37,747 nt of DNA from positions 1 to 37,747 of the IMG/VR virus record IMGVR_UViG_3300033233_000094, one strand, 5' to 3'. Position 1 is the stretch's first letter. Every line of letters starts with the position of its first letter. The notes below the pieces were generated by a model, which saw only the letters and a list, made by a program, of their open reading frames with translations, did no database searches and had not been told where the DNA came from. The translations under genes were made by a program, and so were the position numbers. Shown here piece after piece: positions 1 to 37,741 of this stretch. Source of the stretch: a virus.

Positions 1-27
1 ATGGTTTAATTTGAAATTTAATATCTT
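1..27. repeat. Left copy of 27-bp terminal direct repeat
   Basis: These 27 bases are identical to 37715-37741. After the repeat the left copy reads atag and the right copy reads gcatag to the window end. This means either a closed circle with a small overlap left by assembly, or a real 33-bp in-frame duplication in the fibre gene. Both readings join the two window ends. Confidence 0.9.
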
Positions 28-14987: not shown

Positions 14988-17111
14988 TTACATTAGTCCA
15001 TTATAAGAATTTCGCAAGCTATCAGGAATACCAGTAATTGGGGGCTTTTGAAATTCATCGTTCATTATTTCAACCCATATTCCACGGCAATATGGATGGA
15101 ATATATCCTCATTTGTTAGTGGGTCATCTTTGGATAAAACTCTACCATCCATTGCAGCACAGAAGGAGCAAGTGTGGTCATCCAATATCTCACTTCTTTG
15201 TAAAGCATAAACATCATCGTAATATGCTTTTATAGAAACTCGTCGTCCTTGGTTCACGCCTCCTCCTACTATGATAGACGGAGTAATATCTCCCAATGTT
15301 GCAATCTTATCTTTAATTGATTTTCCAATTAGGGCTAACGCTTTTGTCAAAGGAACTTCATCAGCAAATTTCTTTCCTTCTAACACATCTATTATAGCAA
15401 GTTTAGCCACTTTTATCAAATCATTTTCCATTGCATCAACTAAAGCATCTGCCCTATTGGATAAGTTTAACAAATCATCGGCTGGTGTAGCAGGAACAGG
15501 TTTGTGCATTTCGTGAGCAGCAATTTCTTTTCCATAGTCAAACATTTTCTTTAATTGACGATAAACTAACTGCCTATAATCATTTTGATATTTAACATTC
15601 AAATTCAAAACTCTTTGTCTTTTTTCAGATATGTTAGGAGTTGAAAGTATCCTTTGGACTTGAGCAATCAAATCACTTTGAATTTTAGATAAAATTTTTC
15701 TTAATTCCACTCCTATTTCTTTTTCTGACTGTTCCATTGTTCTATGAACATCGTCCCAGCGAACTTTGTTTTCAGCAAAAGTGAGTGCACGAGGCGGATG
15801 CCATTCCTGAAATACTTTTGGCTCTTGTGCAACTTTTGTTTCTTCCTTATCAGTTGGTTTAGGAGTTTCTGGAGTTGGTTGTTCTAAAACTTCTTTCTTT
15901 GCTGGCAAGCCTAACATATCTCTTATATAATCCTCTAATTCAGGTGAAGGAGTTAATATTCCAGCACTTGCTAAACTTTGTAAAGCACTGGCAAATCTAT
16001 CGTAATCAATTCTACCAATCTTTGTAAATTTCAAAGTAGGATAATCTTTAACATTCCAATTCAAATCAACTAATTGCTTAATAGCATAGTTGTTAATAGT
16101 ATCACAAATCTGTTTTGCAATGGCTTGTAAATTATTTTCAAAAGTGGTTGATTGGTCAGTGCTTAAAGCTCTTGAGCCAACATCACGAGAGCCCAAATCC
16201 ATAAACTGGGTCAAAGTTGAAAGCATTATTTCTCTATCATATCTTGCAAGAGTAGGAGCCGGATTAACAACAGTATTACCTCTCATATCAATAAAGCCAA
16301 TATCCCAACCATTAGGCTTGATAAGATAAGCTTTTTCATTTGCCCTCATGTTCTGGAGTATCTCTTTGGCTTTTTCTACATCTAATGGCGTATGGTTTGG
16401 TGGCAATTGAGCATATGGTATTCCAATTCCTTGTCTCTCAATCGCAATAGCATTTATCTTTTCAATGTGCTGTTTGAAATACCAAGCCCGATAAGCAGTT
16501 CGCAAAATAGAAGTGCCTAACCAGTTATCGCCTTCTTTCCTATAAGTGAATATCAATAACTTTTCTATCGGAATTGATGGCTGACTACCATCTGGCAAAA
16601 TTTGAGTAATGCCGGGCTGATGGTCTACTGTTTCCCATTTGTAAATTGAAGTAGGCAATCGAGGAGCAAATTTTTTCCAACCAATATAAGTATTACCTTT
16701 GTATTCAACCTCAGTGAAAACTTTTTCAAAAACCATATGACCAAAAGGAAGCATCAACAAAGCTTGCCTTAAAAAGTCATCCCAAGTAATTGTCATCCCT
16801 TTGAATAAATTATTTTCAATAAATTCAGCTATCTCTTGGTCTTGGGGGTCATCACTTGCTGGTTCAACATAAAATGTGGCTGACCTAATTGGCAATTCAC
16901 AAGCAAGTAAAACAGCTCCCACAACTCCATCTGATTTTCGCATCTTATCATACACTAATAATGCGTTATTCCCTGTTAATTCAGGAACATAATCAGCGTT
17001 GCTTACTTGTCCTGCAAAAATAGCAGTACCTGTTGCTCCAATTTCTTCATCTGGCTTAATTACAGTTTCTTGAAAACTTTTTTTGTTTGAGTTAAAAAAA
17101 GGTATTTGCAT
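14988..17111 (-). CDS. Portal protein fused to Mu gpF-like minor head domain
   Basis: This 707-residue protein has an N-terminal portal part (about 1-420) of the Mu gp29/DUF935 type: DKMRKSDGVVGAVLLACELP, then DDFLRQALLMLPFGHMVFEK and LLIFTYRKEGDNWLGTSILR. After a proline-rich linker at about 420-445 there is a helical region and a gpF/SPP1 gp7-like C-terminus: SEILDDHTCSFCAAMDGRV with Cys648 and Cys651, then FHPYCRGIWVEI with His672 and Cys675. The usual separate portal and minor head genes are here one protein, so twelve copies of each would be present. A promoter lies just upstream at 17137-17166. Confidence 0.8.
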   Translation of the reverse strand: MQIPFFNSNKKSFQETVIKPDEEIGATGTAIFAGQVSNADYVPELTGNNALLVYDKMRKSDGVVGAVLLACELPIRSATFYVEPASDDPQDQEIAEFIENNLFKGMTITWDDFLRQALLMLPFGHMVFEKVFTEVEYKGNTYIGWKKFAPRLPTSIYKWETVDHQPGITQILPDGSQPSIPIEKLLIFTYRKEGDNWLGTSILRTAYRAWYFKQHIEKINAIAIERQGIGIPYAQLPPNHTPLDVEKAKEILQNMRANEKAYLIKPNGWDIGFIDMRGNTVVNPAPTLARYDREIMLSTLTQFMDLGSRDVGSRALSTDQSTTFENNLQAIAKQICDTINNYAIKQLVDLNWNVKDYPTLKFTKIGRIDYDRFASALQSLASAGILTPSPELEDYIRDMLGLPAKKEVLEQPTPETPKPTDKEETKVAQEPKVFQEWHPPRALTFAENKVRWDDVHRTMEQSEKEIGVELRKILSKIQSDLIAQVQRILSTPNISEKRQRVLNLNVKYQNDYRQLVYRQLKKMFDYGKEIAAHEMHKPVPATPADDLLNLSNRADALVDAMENDLIKVAKLAIIDVLEGKKFADEVPLTKALALIGKSIKDKIATLGDITPSIIVGGGVNQGRRVSIKAYYDDVYALQRSEILDDHTCSFCAAMDGRVLSKDDPLTNEDIFHPYCRGIWVEIMNDEFQKPPITGIPDSLRNSYNGLM

Positions 17112-17178: not shown

Positions 17179-18786
17179 CTAAAATGGTTTGTCCAGTATA
17201 TTACCAAATTCTGTTTCATCACTACCAGTTGGTTCATCCTTCCAATGACTTGCTACATTATCCGTATCTGATGCAACCATATAACATACTCCTGCTACCG
17301 CATCAGCAACATCTTTGCTACCTTTTGCTGGATGGTCAACTTTCTTCCCTTTAACTAATTCCAACCTGATATATTCATCATACAATGGTTGATAGTAGCA
17401 ACTAACAAATCTATTACTGTGAATCATTTCCTTCATCGTATCATAAGGAGCCATAGTCCTATCAACTGATAAGACCTCTGATTCTATTCCTTTGCTTCTT
17501 AATATTTGAATACTATCAACACTTTGGAATCCATCGTAAGTTACTTTCTTGATATAAAATCCTCTCGCTTGTAAATCATAAATCAAAGACCTAACATCGC
17601 TAAATCTTACTTCCCCTTCTGGTGGAGCAGAGATTTTAACAATATAATCAATAGCAACTTTTGGTTTTAATTCTCCCTCGCTTTCATCGTAGCCATTGAG
17701 ATGCCCCATAGCAAATCCGCAAGCATCGTGCTTATAGCCCAAATCAATGTGAATATAGTAATTGACCCCAGGCAATCCTCTGAAAGAACTTTTTAATCGA
17801 CCATTTTCTTCTGGATAGTCCAAGGTCATACAATCTTTTATCCTTTCAGCATCCCTATCGTATGGTTGTAAAACTAAACTTGGCATTGCCCCAAAGTCCC
17901 GCATAAATTTTTCAGGATTTAATTCCGCAACAGTTTTGAAATCATTTGGCACTACCCACTTTTCTGTTCCCGTATCAAAAACAAAAGTTTCTGGACTCAT
18001 TCTATCCCTATCTTTTACTTCCCAAGTTTTATACTTTGAGGAATAAATGTTTGGATTATCTTTTACTTTTTCGTAATGCGAAGTAATAAAATCATCAACA
18101 TATCTTGGTGCTGAAATAACAAAGATAAAACCTTTATTCCCAAAGCGAGAGACGATTCTGTTTTTCATTGTGTTGTAAATGTTCTCGGCAATGCTATGAT
18201 TTTCTGTATCCACATACCAAGCTGCTTCATCTAAGACGCCACAAATCACGTTCATCCCAATTGGCATCGTTTCTTGTGAATTACCCGAGTATAAAGAAAC
18301 GCCTTTTTCAAATCTAATTTCTGTTTGGAGCACTTCTGGGTTGAATTGCATAAACCAAGGACTATTCTTTATCATTGTTTTCAAGCCAGCAAAGATAACA
18401 TTTTTAGCTTGTGTTCCAGTGGTACCCATATTCACTACGGCTATTGGCTTATCATTAGTAATGCCGAAATACTTGTGCGGGTTTTTTAAGCAAAGCAAGT
18501 AATGAACAAACCATAAGCTGATAGTTGAAGCTAAAAAGGATTTACCAGAGCCAATACCCCACAATGCTACTCCTTCATTATACCTGCCTTCTACAATACC
18601 TTTGATTATCTTTTCTCCTTCTTCCCTTACTTTTTGATAAACATCATCTTTAACGCCAAGGACTTTATCAATAAACTCACCATACGACAAATAAGGCATT
18701 TTGTTATACTGCGGATTTTCTAAAAAGAAAAGCAATTGCTTCTTATTCTCCTGATTTAGATTGTTCAATACTTCGTCTAAGGGCAT
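17179..18786 (-). CDS. terL: Terminase large subunit
   Basis: ATG at 18786 (MPLDEVLNNLN) is preferred to a TTG ten codons earlier; this gives 535 residues. Walker A is GIGSGKS (77-83), the Walker B region is ICGVLDEAAW with Asp186-Glu187, and the nuclease domain has IHIDLGYKHDACG (Asp348), VTYDGF (Asp418) and KDVADAVAG (Asp495). This ATPase-nuclease drives DNA into the prohead through the portal and cuts the concatemer. It overlaps the end of the DpdA-like gene by 44 bases, so the two are translationally coupled. No separate small terminase gene is seen; the C-terminal domain of the upstream protein is the candidate. Confidence 0.9.
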   Translation of the reverse strand: MPLDEVLNNLNQENKKQLLFFLENPQYNKMPYLSYGEFIDKVLGVKDDVYQKVREEGEKIIKGIVEGRYNEGVALWGIGSGKSFLASTISLWFVHYLLCLKNPHKYFGITNDKPIAVVNMGTTGTQAKNVIFAGLKTMIKNSPWFMQFNPEVLQTEIRFEKGVSLYSGNSQETMPIGMNVICGVLDEAAWYVDTENHSIAENIYNTMKNRIVSRFGNKGFIFVISAPRYVDDFITSHYEKVKDNPNIYSSKYKTWEVKDRDRMSPETFVFDTGTEKWVVPNDFKTVAELNPEKFMRDFGAMPSLVLQPYDRDAERIKDCMTLDYPEENGRLKSSFRGLPGVNYYIHIDLGYKHDACGFAMGHLNGYDESEGELKPKVAIDYIVKISAPPEGEVRFSDVRSLIYDLQARGFYIKKVTYDGFQSVDSIQILRSKGIESEVLSVDRTMAPYDTMKEMIHSNRFVSCYYQPLYDEYIRLELVKGKKVDHPAKGSKDVADAVAGVCYMVASDTDNVASHWKDEPTGSDETEFGNILDKPF

Positions 18787-20278
18787 AGATAAGTTGCTGC
18801 TTAGTATTTTCGTCAAAAGTGTTGTTTATCTCTTCTGCTGTTTGCACTATTGTATTACTGATGTTAATTTCAGGTTTTCTTAAAGCCATTATGGCTAACA
18901 ACCTGCTTGAAATGTTGTTGATTAAAGTTGTCAAATTTTTATCTTGTAGGCCTCCATCAGCAGATTCGTAAATCAAGTTTTTTGCTGCCCTTACAATATC
19001 TGCTTTGATTATTTCGTTGAGCATTTCTAACACCTTATCCGAATCATTAACATTAAAATCTTTAACAGATTCTATAATGCTATTATAAAATTCTTTTGGG
19101 TCATAATCCTCTCCCAAGGAGCTTTTGGCATAATCCTTATCTGGGAATAAAACTGATAAGGCAGCATATTTGCCTGTCTTGAAGTGAGCTAATCCTGTTT
19201 TAGCCCACTCCCTTTGCCGTTCTTTTCTTTTTTCTTCTATTTCTGGATTATTCTTTAGTATCTCTTGGATTTTGCCTTTATTCTGTTCAAAGCCATTGAG
19301 CTCCTGACCCTCTGCTTCATTTGGATTTTCATTTACTTCATTCGGCATAGTTTCGTTATTACTTAATGGCTCTTCTGATGGTTGAGGCGGGGCTTGAGTT
19401 TGGTTTTGGGCTTGCAATTCCTCGGCATCTACTGGGTCCCAGTATCGCATACCTAATGCTTCATACCGCTGGTTCAAGACCCTGTTCATTTCTAATATAG
19501 CTTTGATATTGGCTTTATTCCTTTCTTTCCAGCCCCTGTCATCTATGACCTTGTTATAATCCACTCCCATTTCTTCCAGCTTGGACTTATATCTAAATAA
19601 TTGCTTATCGTGATAACTAAGAGTTTGGACCATAAACCTATTGTTATCTGGTATCCAAACTACCCCTGTTTTACCGCCGTGCAACCAATCAGTTGAATCA
19701 GTTGAATATACGGGATATTTAGCCAAGAAATGATACGCTGTAAATCCATAAATATGATACCTGGTTTTGTATTCCTTGGCAATACTTATGGCTTTCATCA
19801 GGTTCCTTTCTATCAATGACCTATCAGCATGCTCTCCTGCGATAGCCCCAATAGCCACATAATTGTGAGTTCGGCATAATTCTGTCAAATAATCCCAATC
19901 GTTCATCGTTATGTGATAAACAGCGACTGGTTTTAATCCTTGCTCCTCCATTATGGCAAGATTTCTTTTTGTATTTTCAGGGCTATCCTTATCATCCAAG
20001 GCAGAATAGGCGGTTAATACTGATTCGTTGAATTTGACAAAGTTGATATACGACTGCAAATCTATTGTGACTCCCTGCATATGGGCAGTAAATGCTCCAC
20101 AATCTAAGTAAATATGCAGTTTATTATAATCTATCCTTTCTGAAGCCAACCAATGTTTTATATCCTTAATCCCATATTCTTTTAAGTAATAATACGACAT
20201 TAAAACATTAGTAGCACCAGCATCTACCAAAAGATGAAGCATGCTTGGATTTTCAGCCCCTGCAAAATACAACTTCAT
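18743..20278 (-). CDS. dpdA: DpdA-like DNA guanine transglycosylase fused to putative small terminase
   Basis: This is a 511-residue protein. Residues 1-285 match the phage DpdA/TGT-like fold: HIYLDCGAFTAHM (Asp59, like the DSGGF of TGT), YSALDDKDSPENT, AIGAIAGEHADRS (142-153, like the GLAxGE loop) and YSTDSTDWLHGGKTG (Asp194/Asp197, the usual DpdA DST motif). DpdA swaps guanine in DNA for a 7-deazaguanine. After a linker rich in P, Q, N and E (290-330), residues 335-511 are helical (KRKERQREWAKTGLAHFKTG, then KADIVRAAKNLIYESADGG) and sit where a small terminase belongs. The terminase call is by position and helical content only. Confidence 0.7.
   Translation of the reverse strand: MKLYFAGAENPSMLHLLVDAGATNVLMSYYYLKEYGIKDIKHWLASERIDYNKLHIYLDCGAFTAHMQGVTIDLQSYINFVKFNESVLTAYSALDDKDSPENTKRNLAIMEEQGLKPVAVYHITMNDWDYLTELCRTHNYVAIGAIAGEHADRSLIERNLMKAISIAKEYKTRYHIYGFTAYHFLAKYPVYSTDSTDWLHGGKTGVVWIPDNNRFMVQTLSYHDKQLFRYKSKLEEMGVDYNKVIDDRGWKERNKANIKAILEMNRVLNQRYEALGMRYWDPVDAEELQAQNQTQAPPQPSEEPLSNNETMPNEVNENPNEAEGQELNGFEQNKGKIQEILKNNPEIEEKRKERQREWAKTGLAHFKTGKYAALSVLFPDKDYAKSSLGEDYDPKEFYNSIIESVKDFNVNDSDKVLEMLNEIIKADIVRAAKNLIYESADGGLQDKNLTTLINNISSRLLAIMALRKPEINISNTIVQTAEEINNTFDENTKQQLIYALRRSIEQSKSGE
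19346..19348 (-). other. Possible internal start for separate small terminase
   Basis: An in-frame ATG (Met311, MPNEVNENPNEAEG) lies at the linker between the DpdA and C-terminal domains. It follows CGAAACT, matching the AACTATG context used by many starts here. A 201-residue C-terminal protein could be made from it in addition to the full-length fusion. Confidence 0.4.
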
Positions 20279-20285
20279 AATGGTA

Positions 20286-21056
20286 TTATAAAATCTTTAT
20301 GCCTGCTTTTTCTAAAGCACTAAAAGTTTCTTTTATTCTTTTTTCTGAGTAATGGGAGAAATCTTTTTTATCCCAAGCCTCTTTCATCTTTTTAATACTA
20401 TCTTGGGCATATAAGTTTTCTTCCCCATAAGGCGGATATTCATATTCCTCTGATAAGCCATTGTTGGTCAATGCTACCCATCTCTTGAAACAGGTTCCGC
20501 ACTTACCACAAGGTTTACCAGCTTCACCATCATAGCAAGAACTTGTTTTTAACAATTGTTCTGGAGTTATTCCATTTTCTAAAGCCCATTTCACTATCTC
20601 TGTTTTAGTCATATTAGCAAAAGGAGTTTCTACTACTGTTTCTGGTCTCAAAATATCAAAAACATAAGTAAGTAATCCACTGCTTAAATGATAAAATTCA
20701 GGAGTTTTATCTCTTTCTCTGGCAAATTTATGCATCTCCCCATCTAATGCACAAATCCAAACCCTATCGCCAAAAGAAGCCCCTATAACTGCTAACAAAA
20801 GATTTCTACCAGGAATAATCCAATGGTTTATATCTGGCACATTATTAAATTCTGGCCTGAGTAAATCAATGTGAATTTTTTTAACCTCGTTGGCAAATTC
20901 AAAACTATCAATTGATGCTTCTTCCTTTTTGGCATACGGCTGTCCCAAATCTACCCAAACAGGAACTGGCTCGTATCCCATTTTTTTAGCGTAATAATAT
21001 GCTACATAGCTATCAAGACCACCACTGGTCATGATAACAACTTTTTGTTTATTCAT
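20286..21056 (-). CDS. queC: 7-cyano-7-deazaguanine (preQ0) synthase
   Basis: This 256-residue PP-loop enzyme has SGGLDS at 11-16 and four cysteines for the zinc site at 174, 183, 186 and 189 (SSCYDGEAGKPCGKCGTC). QueC converts 7-carboxy-7-deazaguanine, ammonia and ATP to preQ0. It overlaps the PRT-HAD gene by eight bases and stops seven bases before the DpdA-like gene, so the product preQ0 is made next to the enzyme predicted to insert it. Length and motifs match stand-alone QueC; there is no fused amidotransferase. Confidence 0.92.
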   Translation of the reverse strand: MNKQKVVIMTSGGLDSYVAYYYAKKMGYEPVPVWVDLGQPYAKKEEASIDSFEFANEVKKIHIDLLRPEFNNVPDINHWIIPGRNLLLAVIGASFGDRVWICALDGEMHKFARERDKTPEFYHLSSGLLTYVFDILRPETVVETPFANMTKTEIVKWALENGITPEQLLKTSSCYDGEAGKPCGKCGTCFKRWVALTNNGLSEEYEYPPYGEENLYAQDSIKKMKEAWDKKDFSHYSEKRIKETFSALEKAGIKIL

Positions 21057-21846
21057 GTTTATTATTATTATTTAATACAATTATTTTAACTTTATCTCCA
21101 CACAATTTTTGTAATTCATCGGCTATCCACTTATCACTTTCGTAATAAGTTTTAATCCCATAATGCATAAGGAACCCGTATTTTACTTTTGGTATATTTT
21201 CATACCCCTCATAAAATCTTGAAAATACTATTTTATTGTTAATACCATTTTTGCGAAGCCACTTTATCGTGTACCAACTATCCTCTAATGGACGGCCGGT
21301 TATGATTAAAGCATTTGGCTCTGGTCTAAACAATACGGGCAGTGTCAACCTTCTCAAAACACGATACCAGTTAAAATGCTTGATAAAAAATAATTCCCAC
21401 TTTTGAGGGTCAGGGCAAATTACCCCATCTAAATCATAAGCAACATCAAACTGTGTTTTGTAATCGCTTAATTCATATTCTGTGATTTGCCAGTCCGTGG
21501 TAGCCAGAATACAATAATCAGCCAACTTCGCATTTTCTGGGTCAGCAAATAAAACAAGCAACTGACTATTAGGATATTTCTTTTTAATTAAATCCCAAGT
21601 ATGGCCTGTTCTAATCGTGTTATCTACAAACAAAATTTTAGCATTTTTAGGAATCTTGGGAATTATATCAATTTTTTCTGTCACTTTATCAACAATAATA
21701 AAGCCCAAAGGCGTATCTTTTTTTAGTGAAAGCATTACCGCTGGGATAACCCCATCTCTGGCAATACCCACAATATAATCGTAATCTGGCAATTTTACAG
21801 AATCTAATAATTCATCGATTTGTTTATAAGATAAAATGTTTCTCAT
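21049..21846 (-). CDS. Phosphoribosyltransferase fused to HAD-like phosphatase domain
   Basis: This 265-residue protein has a type I phosphoribosyltransferase N-terminal half (VGIARDGVIPAVMLS, then the PRPP loop ILFVDNTIRTG at 71-81). Its C-terminal half is HAD-like (VAYDLDGVICPD with Asp138 and Asp140, ITGRP at 182-186). Such enzymes join or split base and PRPP, and dephosphorylate nucleotides. It lies between folE and queC in one operon, overlapping queC, which suggests a job in 7-deazaguanine or guanine base supply. The substrate is not known. A base-to-nucleotide step or guanine recycling after transglycosylation are both possible. Confidence 0.75.
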   Translation of the reverse strand: MRNILSYKQIDELLDSVKLPDYDYIVGIARDGVIPAVMLSLKKDTPLGFIIVDKVTEKIDIIPKIPKNAKILFVDNTIRTGHTWDLIKKKYPNSQLLVLFADPENAKLADYCILATTDWQITEYELSDYKTQFDVAYDLDGVICPDPQKWELFFIKHFNWYRVLRRLTLPVLFRPEPNALIITGRPLEDSWYTIKWLRKNGINNKIVFSRFYEGYENIPKVKYGFLMHYGIKTYYESDKWIADELQKLCGDKVKIIVLNNNNKHE

Positions 21847-21855
21847 AGTAGTGTG

Positions 21856-22422
21856 TTAAAATTCTTTTATCATTGATAAAAATTCTTCCTTTGTTTTAGC
21901 ATTATCTCTAAAAATTCCTCTTACTTCACTGGTAGTCATTTCGGCATCATGCTTTTTTACCCCTCTCATTTCTTTGCACAAATGTCTTGCCTTCATAACC
22001 AAAGCAATGCCTAATGGCTGAACTTCTTTTTCAATTGCATCAACTATTTCTTTGGTTAATCTTTCTTGGATTTGTAATTTAGCAGAATAATAATCTACTA
22101 TTCTTGCTATTTTACTAAGTCCCATTATTTTCTTATCAGGAATATAAGCGAAATAATATTCGCCAAAGAAAGGCAACATATGATGTTCGCAGAAAGAATA
22201 AAAATAACCTTTATCAATTACCATTTGGTCATATTTTATTCCATCAGCCCCATTTTCAAAAATTGTAATTTTAGGCTTTTGCGATTCATCATATCCTCTA
22301 AACAATTCCTGATACATATCTGCTATCCTGCGAGGAGTTTCTTTTAATCCCTCCCTATCAGGATTTTCTCCTATTTCTGAAAGGAGTGTTCTGACTATTT
22401 CTTTGATTTTATCTTTATTCAT
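21856..22422 (-). CDS. folE: GTP cyclohydrolase I
   Basis: This 188-residue protein contains NPDREGLKETPRRIADMY, YSFCEHHMLPFFGE (Cys78, His80, His81) and KARHLCKEMRG (His147, Cys149), the zinc and active-site signatures of FolE. It makes dihydroneopterin triphosphate from GTP, the first step toward preQ0. Length is normal for the family. It lies between queE and the PRT-HAD gene, with gaps of about ten bases. Confidence 0.93.
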   Translation of the reverse strand: MNKDKIKEIVRTLLSEIGENPDREGLKETPRRIADMYQELFRGYDESQKPKITIFENGADGIKYDQMVIDKGYFYSFCEHHMLPFFGEYYFAYIPDKKIMGLSKIARIVDYYSAKLQIQERLTKEIVDAIEKEVQPLGIALVMKARHLCKEMRGVKKHDAEMTTSEVRGIFRDNAKTKEEFLSMIKEF

Positions 22423-22437
22423 AAGTATTGTGTTAAG

Positions 22438-23088
22438 TTATATTTTTTTCTTTTTGCCAAAGATAAAAAATTGTAATCTTGGTGAAAATCTAATGTTGTG
22501 TTCTGTGCAATACCACCAAACTTTCTTCAAAATCATTTTATCTCTTTTGTCATAAAAAGTCAAAGGCATTAAAATCGTGGCATATTTAATCATATCAACC
22601 CCTTCTTTTTTCAAATCCGTCACAACTTTAATATCATAAATATCTTTACTATAACCACTGAATAATCCACTAACTTTTTCAGCAGTAGCCAATTCCTTTG
22701 GGGAACAAGCAACATAATTAAATGTTCTAAATAACTGTTGAACATTTTTACTGTTAATCAAATCTCCATTCGTTTCAAGATGAAATATTTTATCTTTAAC
22801 CTGACTTCTAATTTCTCTAATAGCATTAAATTGAAGTAATGGTTCCCCTCCTGTAAAGCAAATATTCTTTAACTTTGATTTTTTAATTATCTTAACAATT
22901 TTTTCTATTGGATAAGGCTTGTAATTTGTCCAAGAATACTTAGTATCACAAAACCAACATCGTCTATTGCACCCTCCTAATCTGATAAAAAGCATTGGCG
23001 TTCCAGCGTATCTACCTTCTCCCTGCAACGATTCAAAAATCTCAACTATGTTAATAGTTTTCTTCTGCACTTGATTTTGAAGTTTCAT
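22438..23088 (-). CDS. queE: 7-carboxy-7-deazaguanine synthase (radical SAM)
   Basis: This 216-residue protein has IFESLQGEGRYAG, then GGCNRRCWFCDTK with Cys40, Cys44 and Cys47 (CX3CX2C, the radical SAM cluster motif), and CFTGGEPLLQ at 77-86. QueE converts 6-carboxytetrahydropterin to 7-carboxy-7-deazaguanine. The ATG at 23088 overlaps the queD end by 38 bases, and no other in-frame start precedes the conserved part. The terminal KKKKI tail is unusual but short. Confidence 0.9.
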   Translation of the reverse strand: MKLQNQVQKKTINIVEIFESLQGEGRYAGTPMLFIRLGGCNRRCWFCDTKYSWTNYKPYPIEKIVKIIKKSKLKNICFTGGEPLLQFNAIREIRSQVKDKIFHLETNGDLINSKNVQQLFRTFNYVACSPKELATAEKVSGLFSGYSKDIYDIKVVTDLKKEGVDMIKYATILMPLTFYDKRDKMILKKVWWYCTEHNIRFSPRLQFFIFGKKKKI

Positions 23089-23404
23089 ACAATTTTATCT
23101 TTTTAATTGTAATGCCTTGTGGCAATGAACCGACCAATTCATCGTGCATCCATTTTATTAAATTTTCAGCAGTAGGAACTTCAAGAATATCATTTAATGA
23201 AGTATGGTCTAATCTATCTATAATCTTTGTTTTAACAATATCAGATAAAATGCCAAAATCTAATACCATTCCAGTGTTTTCATCTACTGGTCCCTCTACT
23301 GATACTTCTAACTTATAAGAATGTCCGTGTAAATTGTGGCACTTGCCTTCGTAATTTGGCAAATGATGTGCCGATTCAAATTCAAAGTATTTAGTTATAA
23401 TCAT
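23051..23404 (-). CDS. queD: 6-carboxytetrahydropterin synthase
   Basis: This 117-residue protein has FESAHHLPNYEGKCHNLHGH with metal-binding His13/14, His26 and His28 and catalytic Cys22. It continues with LDHTSLND and a C-terminal KLYETSKSSAE, all typical of QueD. It converts dihydroneopterin triphosphate to 6-carboxytetrahydropterin. It is the first gene of the tight que group and overlaps queE. The length matches the family. Confidence 0.93.
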   Translation of the reverse strand: MIITKYFEFESAHHLPNYEGKCHNLHGHSYKLEVSVEGPVDENTGMVLDFGILSDIVKTKIIDRLDHTSLNDILEVPTAENLIKWMHDELVGSLPQGITIKKIKLYETSKSSAEENY

Positions 23405-29039: not shown

Positions 29040-29897
29040 TTAATCATCTAAATATCCTATTCGTTTTAGATATTCCTCACTGGTTTCTGCCGTGGTATCT
29101 TTATTCTCATCTACTGATGGCAATAACTTTTCAGTTCTATAATCATAAAAAGGTCTGAACCAATTACTTTGAACCGGATTTTTTGCCTGATATACAAGAC
29201 CTTTTTTACTAATATCATAAACATAAATCCCTTCTGGCAAAACATTATGAACTACTGGCAATTGTATCCCATCTACTTCAAAACCAAATCCAGCGTAATC
29301 CACGACTTTTTTGCTACCTGTCACAGCACTAAATGAAGCAAAAGATATAAAAGTTTTCATATCAGAATAAACATCAATTTCTCTTGTGCCTAAAAGGTAT
29401 ATCTGCTTTTTCTTGGTATCTAAGAAAAATGCTACTCCACTAAATCCTGTCTCCCTCATTAAATTTGAAATTATTTTAACTTTATGTTCAAGGCTTAAAT
29501 TATTTGCCTTTTTTTCAAATCGCCTCAATATCATATCAAAGAACAATTTGCTATCAGAATCAACTTGGCTGATACCACTTAATTGAGCTATCCAACCATT
29601 GTGAGCAAATGAATAACCATCTTGTATCCAGAAATGCAAGTTATTCTCTGCTATCACACCCGATGTTGCTGTCCTTGTATGCATCCCAAACACTCCTTTG
29701 TTTTTACTTTGCTTAATAATATAATCAAGGGCTTTATCAACTGAATCAAATGATATTCTTTCTGGATTTTTTAATCCCTTCCAGCTGAAAACCACAGTGC
29801 CATCTTTTTCTCCCTCAAACAATTCCTTATTAACTTTGAATAAATTTGCACTTTGTTTGCCTTCTTTAAAATTAACATTTAACATTAACTTACACAT
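29040..29897 (-). CDS. Class II glutamine amidotransferase
   Basis: This 285-residue protein starts MCKLML, placing Cys2 as the Ntn nucleophile after Met removal. It has MHTRTATSG (72-80), FAHNGWIAQL with the HNG at 99-101, and VDSDSKLFFDMI at 112-123, the class II amidotransferase signature. It releases ammonia from glutamine for a partner. It overlaps the amidoligase gene by eight bases, so these two are the likely pair. The stand-alone QueC in this phage is another, weaker partner candidate, since Gat-QueC fusions exist. Confidence 0.85.
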   Translation of the reverse strand: MCKLMLNVNFKEGKQSANLFKVNKELFEGEKDGTVVFSWKGLKNPERISFDSVDKALDYIIKQSKNKGVFGMHTRTATSGVIAENNLHFWIQDGYSFAHNGWIAQLSGISQVDSDSKLFFDMILRRFEKKANNLSLEHKVKIISNLMRETGFSGVAFFLDTKKKQIYLLGTREIDVYSDMKTFISFASFSAVTGSKKVVDYAGFGFEVDGIQLPVVHNVLPEGIYVYDISKKGLVYQAKNPVQSNWFRPFYDYRTEKLLPSVDENKDTTAETSEEYLKRIGYLDD

Positions 29898-30564
29898 ATA
29901 TTTGTTGTTTTATTACTGGTTGAATTATTTTATTTACTACGACCTTTTGTTTTTTAATTTCTTCATCTAAATATTCTTGGATTATTTTTACTGTTGCTTT
30001 GATATAATCAAAAGCCATATCTATATTCATATCAAAAATTCTAAATTCAATAGTCGAATGTTTATACCAAGCGTTGAAATTCACGGCTTTATACCTATCT
30101 CCCGCACCCGTCAAAAAACTGTAAATCACATCTCGTTTCGACCTAACACGAGGATTACAATAATGATTGGTCTGCCTCAATGCGAACATCTCTGGGAACA
30201 TTTCGGCTATTCGTTTTACAAAATAATCGTTAAAATGTTTGCTGGCTAATAATGAGATTATAGTCTTTGACTTGAAACTAACATGGACGTGAAATCCGCA
30301 GGAATAATTAGCCAATACAAAATACTTTTTTATTACCTCCAAATCCTTGGCAATTCTGTCCAATGAACCTCTTGGGTTGCTTCTGTATTCCCTTTCAGTA
30401 AATTCGCTTAAACTTGCGTCAATTCCATTTACTTCCAAATCAACTGTATCAATATCTATACTTCCATCGTAAGTGAATTCTCCGCCTATTTCTTTGGTCA
30501 ATTTATCATAATTATTTGACCATAACCCTTCTATTTCGTAGCCAATTTTTTTAATATATTTCAT
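29890..30564 (-). CDS. Amidoligase (COOH-NH2 ligase, glutamine synthetase-like)
   Basis: This 224-residue protein has the amidoligase pattern: IGYEIEGLW (ExE at 10-12), GGEFTYDGSIDID, DASLSEFTEREYRSN, CGFHVHVSFKS (89-99) and STIEFRIFDMN. This family uses ATP to join a carboxylate with an amine, often with a class II amidotransferase beside it, as here. Earlier comparative work predicts peptide or metabolite modification. The target in this phage is unknown: cell wall, a protein, or a 7-deazaguanine carboxylate are possible. Confidence 0.8.
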   Translation of the reverse strand: MKYIKKIGYEIEGLWSNNYDKLTKEIGGEFTYDGSIDIDTVDLEVNGIDASLSEFTEREYRSNPRGSLDRIAKDLEVIKKYFVLANYSCGFHVHVSFKSKTIISLLASKHFNDYFVKRIAEMFPEMFALRQTNHYCNPRVRSKRDVIYSFLTGAGDRYKAVNFNAWYKHSTIEFRIFDMNIDMAFDYIKATVKIIQEYLDEEIKKQKVVVNKIIQPVIKQQIYV

Positions 30565-37714: not shown

Positions 37715-37741
37715 ATGGTTTAATTTGAAATTTAATATCTT
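37715..37741. repeat. Right copy of 27-bp terminal direct repeat
   Basis: These 27 bases repeat 1-27 exactly. The minus-strand frame of the fibre gene continues through this copy and ends at TAG (37712-37714). The codons here, KILNFKLNH, repeat those at the left edge. Confidence 0.9.

Follow-up and report, generated by a model that had tools for sequence, protein, structure and literature searches.

We analysed a window of 37,747 nucleotides, the whole stretch of IMG/VR virus record IMGVR_UViG_3300033233_000094, in which an operon on the minus strand runs in the order QueD-QueE-FolE-PRT/HAD-QueC-[DpdA::C-domain]-TerL-portal. It comprises queD, encoding 6-carboxytetrahydropterin synthase (23051..23404; PF01242, E=3.5e-36), queE, the radical SAM CDG synthase (22438..23088; phrog_2076, E=1.5e-33), folE, GTP cyclohydrolase I (21856..22422; PF01227, E=2.5e-66), and queC, preQ0 synthase of the canonical type (20286..21056; PF06508, E=9e-22). 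Because FolE, QueD, QueE and QueC are all encoded in this operon, the phage appears able to make preQ0. No archaeosine amidotransferase partner was recognised among the genes examined. The packaging module follows on the same strand, with the large terminase gene terL (17179..18816, starting at TTG 18816 or ATG 18786; phrog_2, E=1e-17) and, next to it, the portal protein gene (14988..17111; PF06074, E=2e-53; PF21919, P23-45 portal, E=2.5e-22).

Some further features of the genome were recorded. Between folE and queC, also on the minus strand, phosphoribosyltransferase (PRT) and HAD-like domains apparently share one gene (21049..21846; PF00156, E=7e-4, which is below the curated cut-off; phrog_8995, E=4e-9), a second fusion in the preQ0 operon; the HAD-like motifs were recognised by eye. 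The PRT (L015, L028) and HAD (L233, 4864-5148) genes look separate in relatives. An amidoligase-like gene lies at 29893-30564 (phrog_2443, E=9e-7). A direct repeat of 27 nt, exact in sequence, lies close to either end of the window (1-27 and 37715-37741) and suggests a complete, circularly permuted genome, a status that the record itself is not given. Gene starts in the window are preceded by A/T-rich runs, and no Shine-Dalgarno sequence was found in the 23 window genes checked.

Between queC and terL lies a single ATG frame of 511 codons (18743..20278, minus strand), which an earlier note had read, without giving the strand, as a DpdA-like transglycosylase fused to a putative small terminase (TerS). 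The product, P0001, divides into a DpdA/TGT domain (residues 1-283; 19430..20278, minus strand), a linker (residues 284-334; 19277..19429, minus strand), described as P/Q/N-rich and more precisely rich in P, Q, N and E, and a TerS domain (residues 335-511; 18743..19276, minus strand) recognised by HMM, hhalign and blastp to L202, a second fused copy discussed below. As claimed, the frame and the terL ORF overlap: by 74 nt if terL starts at TTG 18816, and by 44 nt if it starts at ATG 18786. The in-frame internal ATG that the note had pointed out also exists, at codon 311 (19346..19348, minus strand), and could start a TerS-only product.

The assignment of the N-terminal domain is supported at several levels. 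Residues 1-481 of P0001 match phrog_887 (queuine tRNA-ribosyltransferase) in PHROG with E=8e-42, and the N-terminal piece used alone as query matches over residues 1-270 with E=4.5e-37. The TGT/DpdA motifs listed earlier (Asp59, the AIAGE loop and the DST motif) are all present: Asp59 lies in LDCGAF, the loop is AIGAIAGE at 142-149, and YHIYGFT at 174-180 precedes STDSTDW, which holds Asp194. Both catalytic residues (codons 20102-20104 for D59 and 19697-19699 for D194) align with all intact DpdAs, which carry two Asp in DSGA-like and SxDS motifs, and D59, G61, A62, H175, G178, D194, S195 and W198 are invariant between P0001 and nine divergent phage DpdAs. Standalone DpdAs in related operons stop at the equivalent of residue 283. 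Known DpdA replaces guanine in DNA with 7-deazaguanines (PMC6884629). For the DpdA domain of P0001, base exchange in DNA is putative.

TerS oligomers recognise viral DNA and pass it to TerL. The relationship of the P0001 C-domain to such proteins was resolved only through a chain formed by L202, the Streptomyces phage BRock protein and the long TerS of actinophages; direct searches failed. The path to it was the C-terminal part of phrog_887, which also matches long 'terminase small subunits' of 450-500 aa. Against the varied TerS of TerL relatives, the C-domain gave nothing above noise (BLAST, phmmer, hhalign); a PDB sequence search returned chance matches only, profile searches yielded no significant HTH match, and the domain is not listed in Pfam or PDB. 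An HMM of actinophage long-TerS C-domains, built with P0001 left out, matches residues 406-506 of P0001 in register with 23 bits, whereas 2000 shuffled sequences gave 10.1 at most. P0001 is the only one of all window ORFs picked by this HMM, and no TerS profile matched any other window ORF, in agreement with the earlier claim that the window holds no other small terminase gene. By hhalign, the P0001 C-domain alone matches the long-TerS C-domains with P=1.3e-5, and a profile of the fusions' C-domains does so at 96% (P=1.7e-9, score 65; no more than 15.8 in 40 column shuffles). The C-domains of P0001 and L202 match each other directly (blastp, E=1e-10).

Two further phages show the halves apart. 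In Trogglehumper, the C-domain is a standalone 199-aa protein encoded directly upstream of the terminase gene (hhalign P=8.6e-15), and in ReqiDocB7 the two halves are two genes, so that these modules are natural ones. Given this occurrence alone or split, together with the TerS homology, the C-domain would be the TerS proper and the N-domain an added module. On these profile comparisons the C-domain of P0001 is assigned to the TerS family, in which the TerS names of the relatives are mostly positional. P0001 is related to the long actinophage TerS (PHROG 6902) and is not filed as a member (phrog_6902, E=0.087). The zinc finger CxxC..C..C of the BRock group and of all full-length long TerS is not in P0001, whose C-domain lacks the four Zn-binding cysteines found in related proteins. 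Helices are predicted for residues 335-511, as the earlier note described, but the single-sequence AlphaFold model has very low confidence (pLDDT 41); it contains a helical hairpin at 413-465, with a matching hairpin at 321-374 in the model of the long TerS L177. Weak structural matches of the L177 model to T4-type TerS in BFVD (E 0.26-0.43) were set aside as evidence. Ring formation, pac binding and TerL stimulation by P0001 are putative.

The second fused copy, L202, came from a search of 380 genomes from the phylum to which the nearest TerL relative belongs. In an uncultured genome, it forms a frame of 500 aa immediately upstream of a terL gene whose frame it overlaps; the encoded TerL shares 43% identity with that of the window, and the contig is ordered QueD-QueE-FolE-HAD-QueC-(one 309-aa gene)-[DpdA::C-domain]-TerL. 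L202 is 25% identical to P0001 over its whole length (E=3e-28), has a shorter linker and, like P0001, matches phrog_887, here along its whole length (E=2.6e-40). Scans of viral contigs with narrow patterns gave no further intact fusions, and DpdA is a single-domain protein at about 110 other DpdA loci (IMG/VR, GenBank). The closest family sharing the operon has DpdA - ParB - TerS - TerL as four separate genes, and the nearest TerL relative (L174, 58% identity) encodes a short DUF5681-type protein at the place of the fusion. The search among related phages that the note had called for gave both outcomes, the fusion again in L202 and in BRock-like phages and separate DpdA and TerS genes in related operons.

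Two side observations concern these loci. A ParB-like (DpdB-type) gene, sometimes two, lies between DpdA and terS-terL in L014-L031 and L107-L110; the window is without it. A DpdA of 732 aa from a human-gut phage (L012, 5947-8145) has a long insert adjoining the active-site Asp, apparently an intein or homing element.

Versions of the same architecture are found in cultured phages. The Streptomyces phages BRock, GiJojo and pSt2308 encode a DpdA of 500 aa with a C-domain homologous to that of P0001, and LuckySocke and Alone3 were added to these carriers by similarity. The BRock-like fusion genes are far from terL, and since they do not adjoin it their C-domain need not be a TerS. Their products (BRock gp36, L211 7761-9263; GiJojo gp181; pSt2308) are filed as queuine tRNA-ribosyltransferase, DpdA-like or hypothetical. 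In L211, L212 and L213 the nucleophile Asp is replaced by Ser or Ala. The enzyme annotation of these three proteins is doubtful, because that Asp is absent and the phages lack QueC and FolE.

Long TerS of 450-540 residues are encoded directly upstream of terL in Gordonia, Tsukamurella and Rhodococcus phages. Their N-domain matches the TGT/DpdA profile by hhalign with P=6e-5 when six sequences are used and with P=1.1e-7 (94%, score 60) when 21 are used; scores reached at most 21 with eight unrelated families, 15 in 40 column shuffles and 12 with the reversed profile. The DpdA HMM alone does not reach these N-domains, and profile-profile or structure comparison is needed. An AlphaFold model of L177, made from an alignment of long-TerS sequences only, with no DpdA, has pLDDT 76-94 in the N-domain. 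For this domain, VIA-align has only tRNA-guanine transglycosylases among its best 50 chains, with Z 11.6-12.5 and rmsd 3.5-4.2 over about 210 residues. Foldseek with the L177 model also places TGTs first, with a weak E-value (0.02), and in BFVD phage queuine tRNA-ribosyltransferases rank after the long TerS themselves. Together, these comparisons indicate that the N-half of the long actinophage TerS has a TGT fold; its active site appears to be lost. The seemingly degenerate N-domain is also seen in individual records (L177 4443-5789; L143, Gordonia GTE7, 3-1484; L214-L218), the annotations of which are silent on it.

The state of the active site follows the supply of preQ0. Both catalytic Asp are present in the window and L202 proteins, each alongside a full preQ0 pathway. 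The BRock group keeps DSG and has Ser or Ala in place of the nucleophile, and the long TerS have no DSGA-type motif and a variable nucleophile position; here the motif search is the safer basis, the joint alignment being unreliable in the N-terminal part. QueC and FolE were absent from all nine of the searched records with a lost active site, with the control genomes detected. This pattern is as expected for a domain that works as an enzyme in phages making its substrate and has become a pseudoenzyme in the others, with the qualification that the correlation includes only two intact fusions and that the phage groups are related and not independent.

In a tree of DpdA domains the window does not join L202 or BRock. 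The AU test rejects a single clade (p=0.0015) and a grouping of the window with L202 (p=0.012), and P0001 forms a long branch. This may reflect separate fusions, a domain swap or a long-branch artefact.

Taken together, C-domain homology, position at terL and the independent second copy make the DpdA-TerS architecture well supported. We consider it probable, at roughly 0.6, that P0001 is a bifunctional subunit for DNA modification and packaging recognition. The DpdA domain would swap guanines in phage DNA for preQ0 or a derivative, and the C-domain would oligomerise through its helical hairpin and engage TerL. The TGT barrel would stand in for the usual DNA-binding (HTH) domain of TerS, and with the barrel replacing the missing HTH one particle would write the mark and choose the DNA. 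The subunit that selects DNA would thereby also write, and perhaps read, a base mark, and TerL would be steered towards phage DNA that is modified; this coupling of modification to packaging is what we infer. In phages without the preQ0 pathway, a dead TGT domain presumably stays as the DNA-binding module of TerS. A more specific scenario is tentative, with the odds somewhat against it: a TerS ring with active DpdA units as its DNA-reading domains would mark and read DNA during packaging selection, and many actinophage TerS would descend from such proteins, the TGT domain having been kept as a dead base-reading module after loss of the preQ0 pathway.

Other explanations were weighed against the bifunctional subunit. 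The chain might carry two independent activities, the fusion being a neutral read-through or stoichiometry device without coupling. In related operons (DpdA-ParB-TerS-TerL) and in mycobacteriophage CRB2, DpdA and terS lie close together, so that loss of a stop codon could join them, and the linker of P0001 is long and of low complexity; however, the fusion persists in two phages whose proteins are only 25% identical, and the TGT domain has been kept in many TerS after loss of the active site, which suggests a packaging role. We regard a neutral fusion as unlikely, though it is the strongest of these competitors. A sequencing error joining two genes was named in the note as a possible refutation, and the separate DpdA and TerS genes of related operons speak for such a sequencing or assembly error. 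It is very unlikely, however, and practically ruled out by two assemblies that are strongly divergent in sequence and show the same operon order, the second having its own fused frame of 500 aa. The fusion also recurs in several cultured Streptomyces phages, and the window frame is open throughout the linker.

The two remaining alternatives modify the role of the parts. Translation might yield two products, full-length DpdA-TerS and a TerS-only protein from ATG 19348, in mixed rings or with separate functions. The in-frame ATG stands where the TerS-side linker begins, and genes of the window start without Shine-Dalgarno sequences in similar A/T-rich contexts; no positive signal was seen, and L202 has its own, shorter linker. 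The internal ATG likewise has no Shine-Dalgarno sequence, which in this window is no guide to start use, as all 23 checked genes lack one; we hold a second product to be improbable. Slightly less probable again is that here, too, the TGT domain mainly serves TerS as a DNA-recognition module, reading sequence or modified bases by base flipping, bulk modification being weak or incidental. In its favour, the domain persists in the long TerS and BRock proteins, which have no catalytic residues and come from phages that lack preQ0 genes. Against this, both phages with intact sites have both catalytic Asp and a complete preQ0 pathway, implying selection for catalysis.

The bifunctional reading bears on several questions. 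Modification and packaging are treated as separate steps, and a protein with both functions offers a testable way for a phage to restrict packaging to modified (self) DNA. Why the small terminases of many Gordonia-type phages are unusually large would be explained by an N-half that is a TGT-fold domain with an apparently lost active site. DNA recognition by TerS is a long-standing question, for which the TGT fold, which handles a flipped-out guanine in known TGT enzymes, suggests a concrete mechanism that can be tested in cultured phages. The recurrence of the fusion, apparently inactive versions in many known phages included, suggests that DNA marking and packaging are physically linked.

Among known systems, phage DpdAs of the 9g/Queuovirinae type (PHROG 887) share with P0001 the TGT-like domain, the catalytic motifs and the position beside folE/queD/queE/queC. 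Unlike P0001, the known DpdAs compared have about 235-370 aa and no TerS domain, and in Queuovirinae the gene adjoins DNA polymerase genes instead of terL. The BRock-type proteins combine the same two domains in one chain, as P0001 does, but differ in the nucleophile position, the missing QueC and FolE, the distance from terL and the presence of the Zn cysteines. The long actinophage TerS (PHROG 6902/16015; Gordonia GTE7, Kvothe and Jumbo; Tsukamurella TIN3) have the homologous C-domain, the place upstream of terL and a TGT-fold N-domain, whereas they lack the active-site motif and preQ0 genes and carry the Zn finger; the TGT nature of their N-domain is not mentioned in annotations or searchable papers. 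The Z. mobilis TGT and the archaeal ArcTGT have the fold of the N-domain in common with P0001, act on tRNA and have no terminase link. Mycobacteriophage CRB2 has an operon DpdA-QueC-D-E-FolE-TerS-TerL (PMC6392294), the same gene set beside the terminase as in the window, with DpdA and TerS as separate genes. The open-access literature that was searched contained no description of a DpdA or TGT joined to a terminase, as the note had supposed, although annotated BRock-like and Gordonia-type records do carry versions of it, each under a different name. The parts of P0001 are of known kinds, and its architecture, together with the spread of a dead version through the TerS of actinophages, appears to be new.
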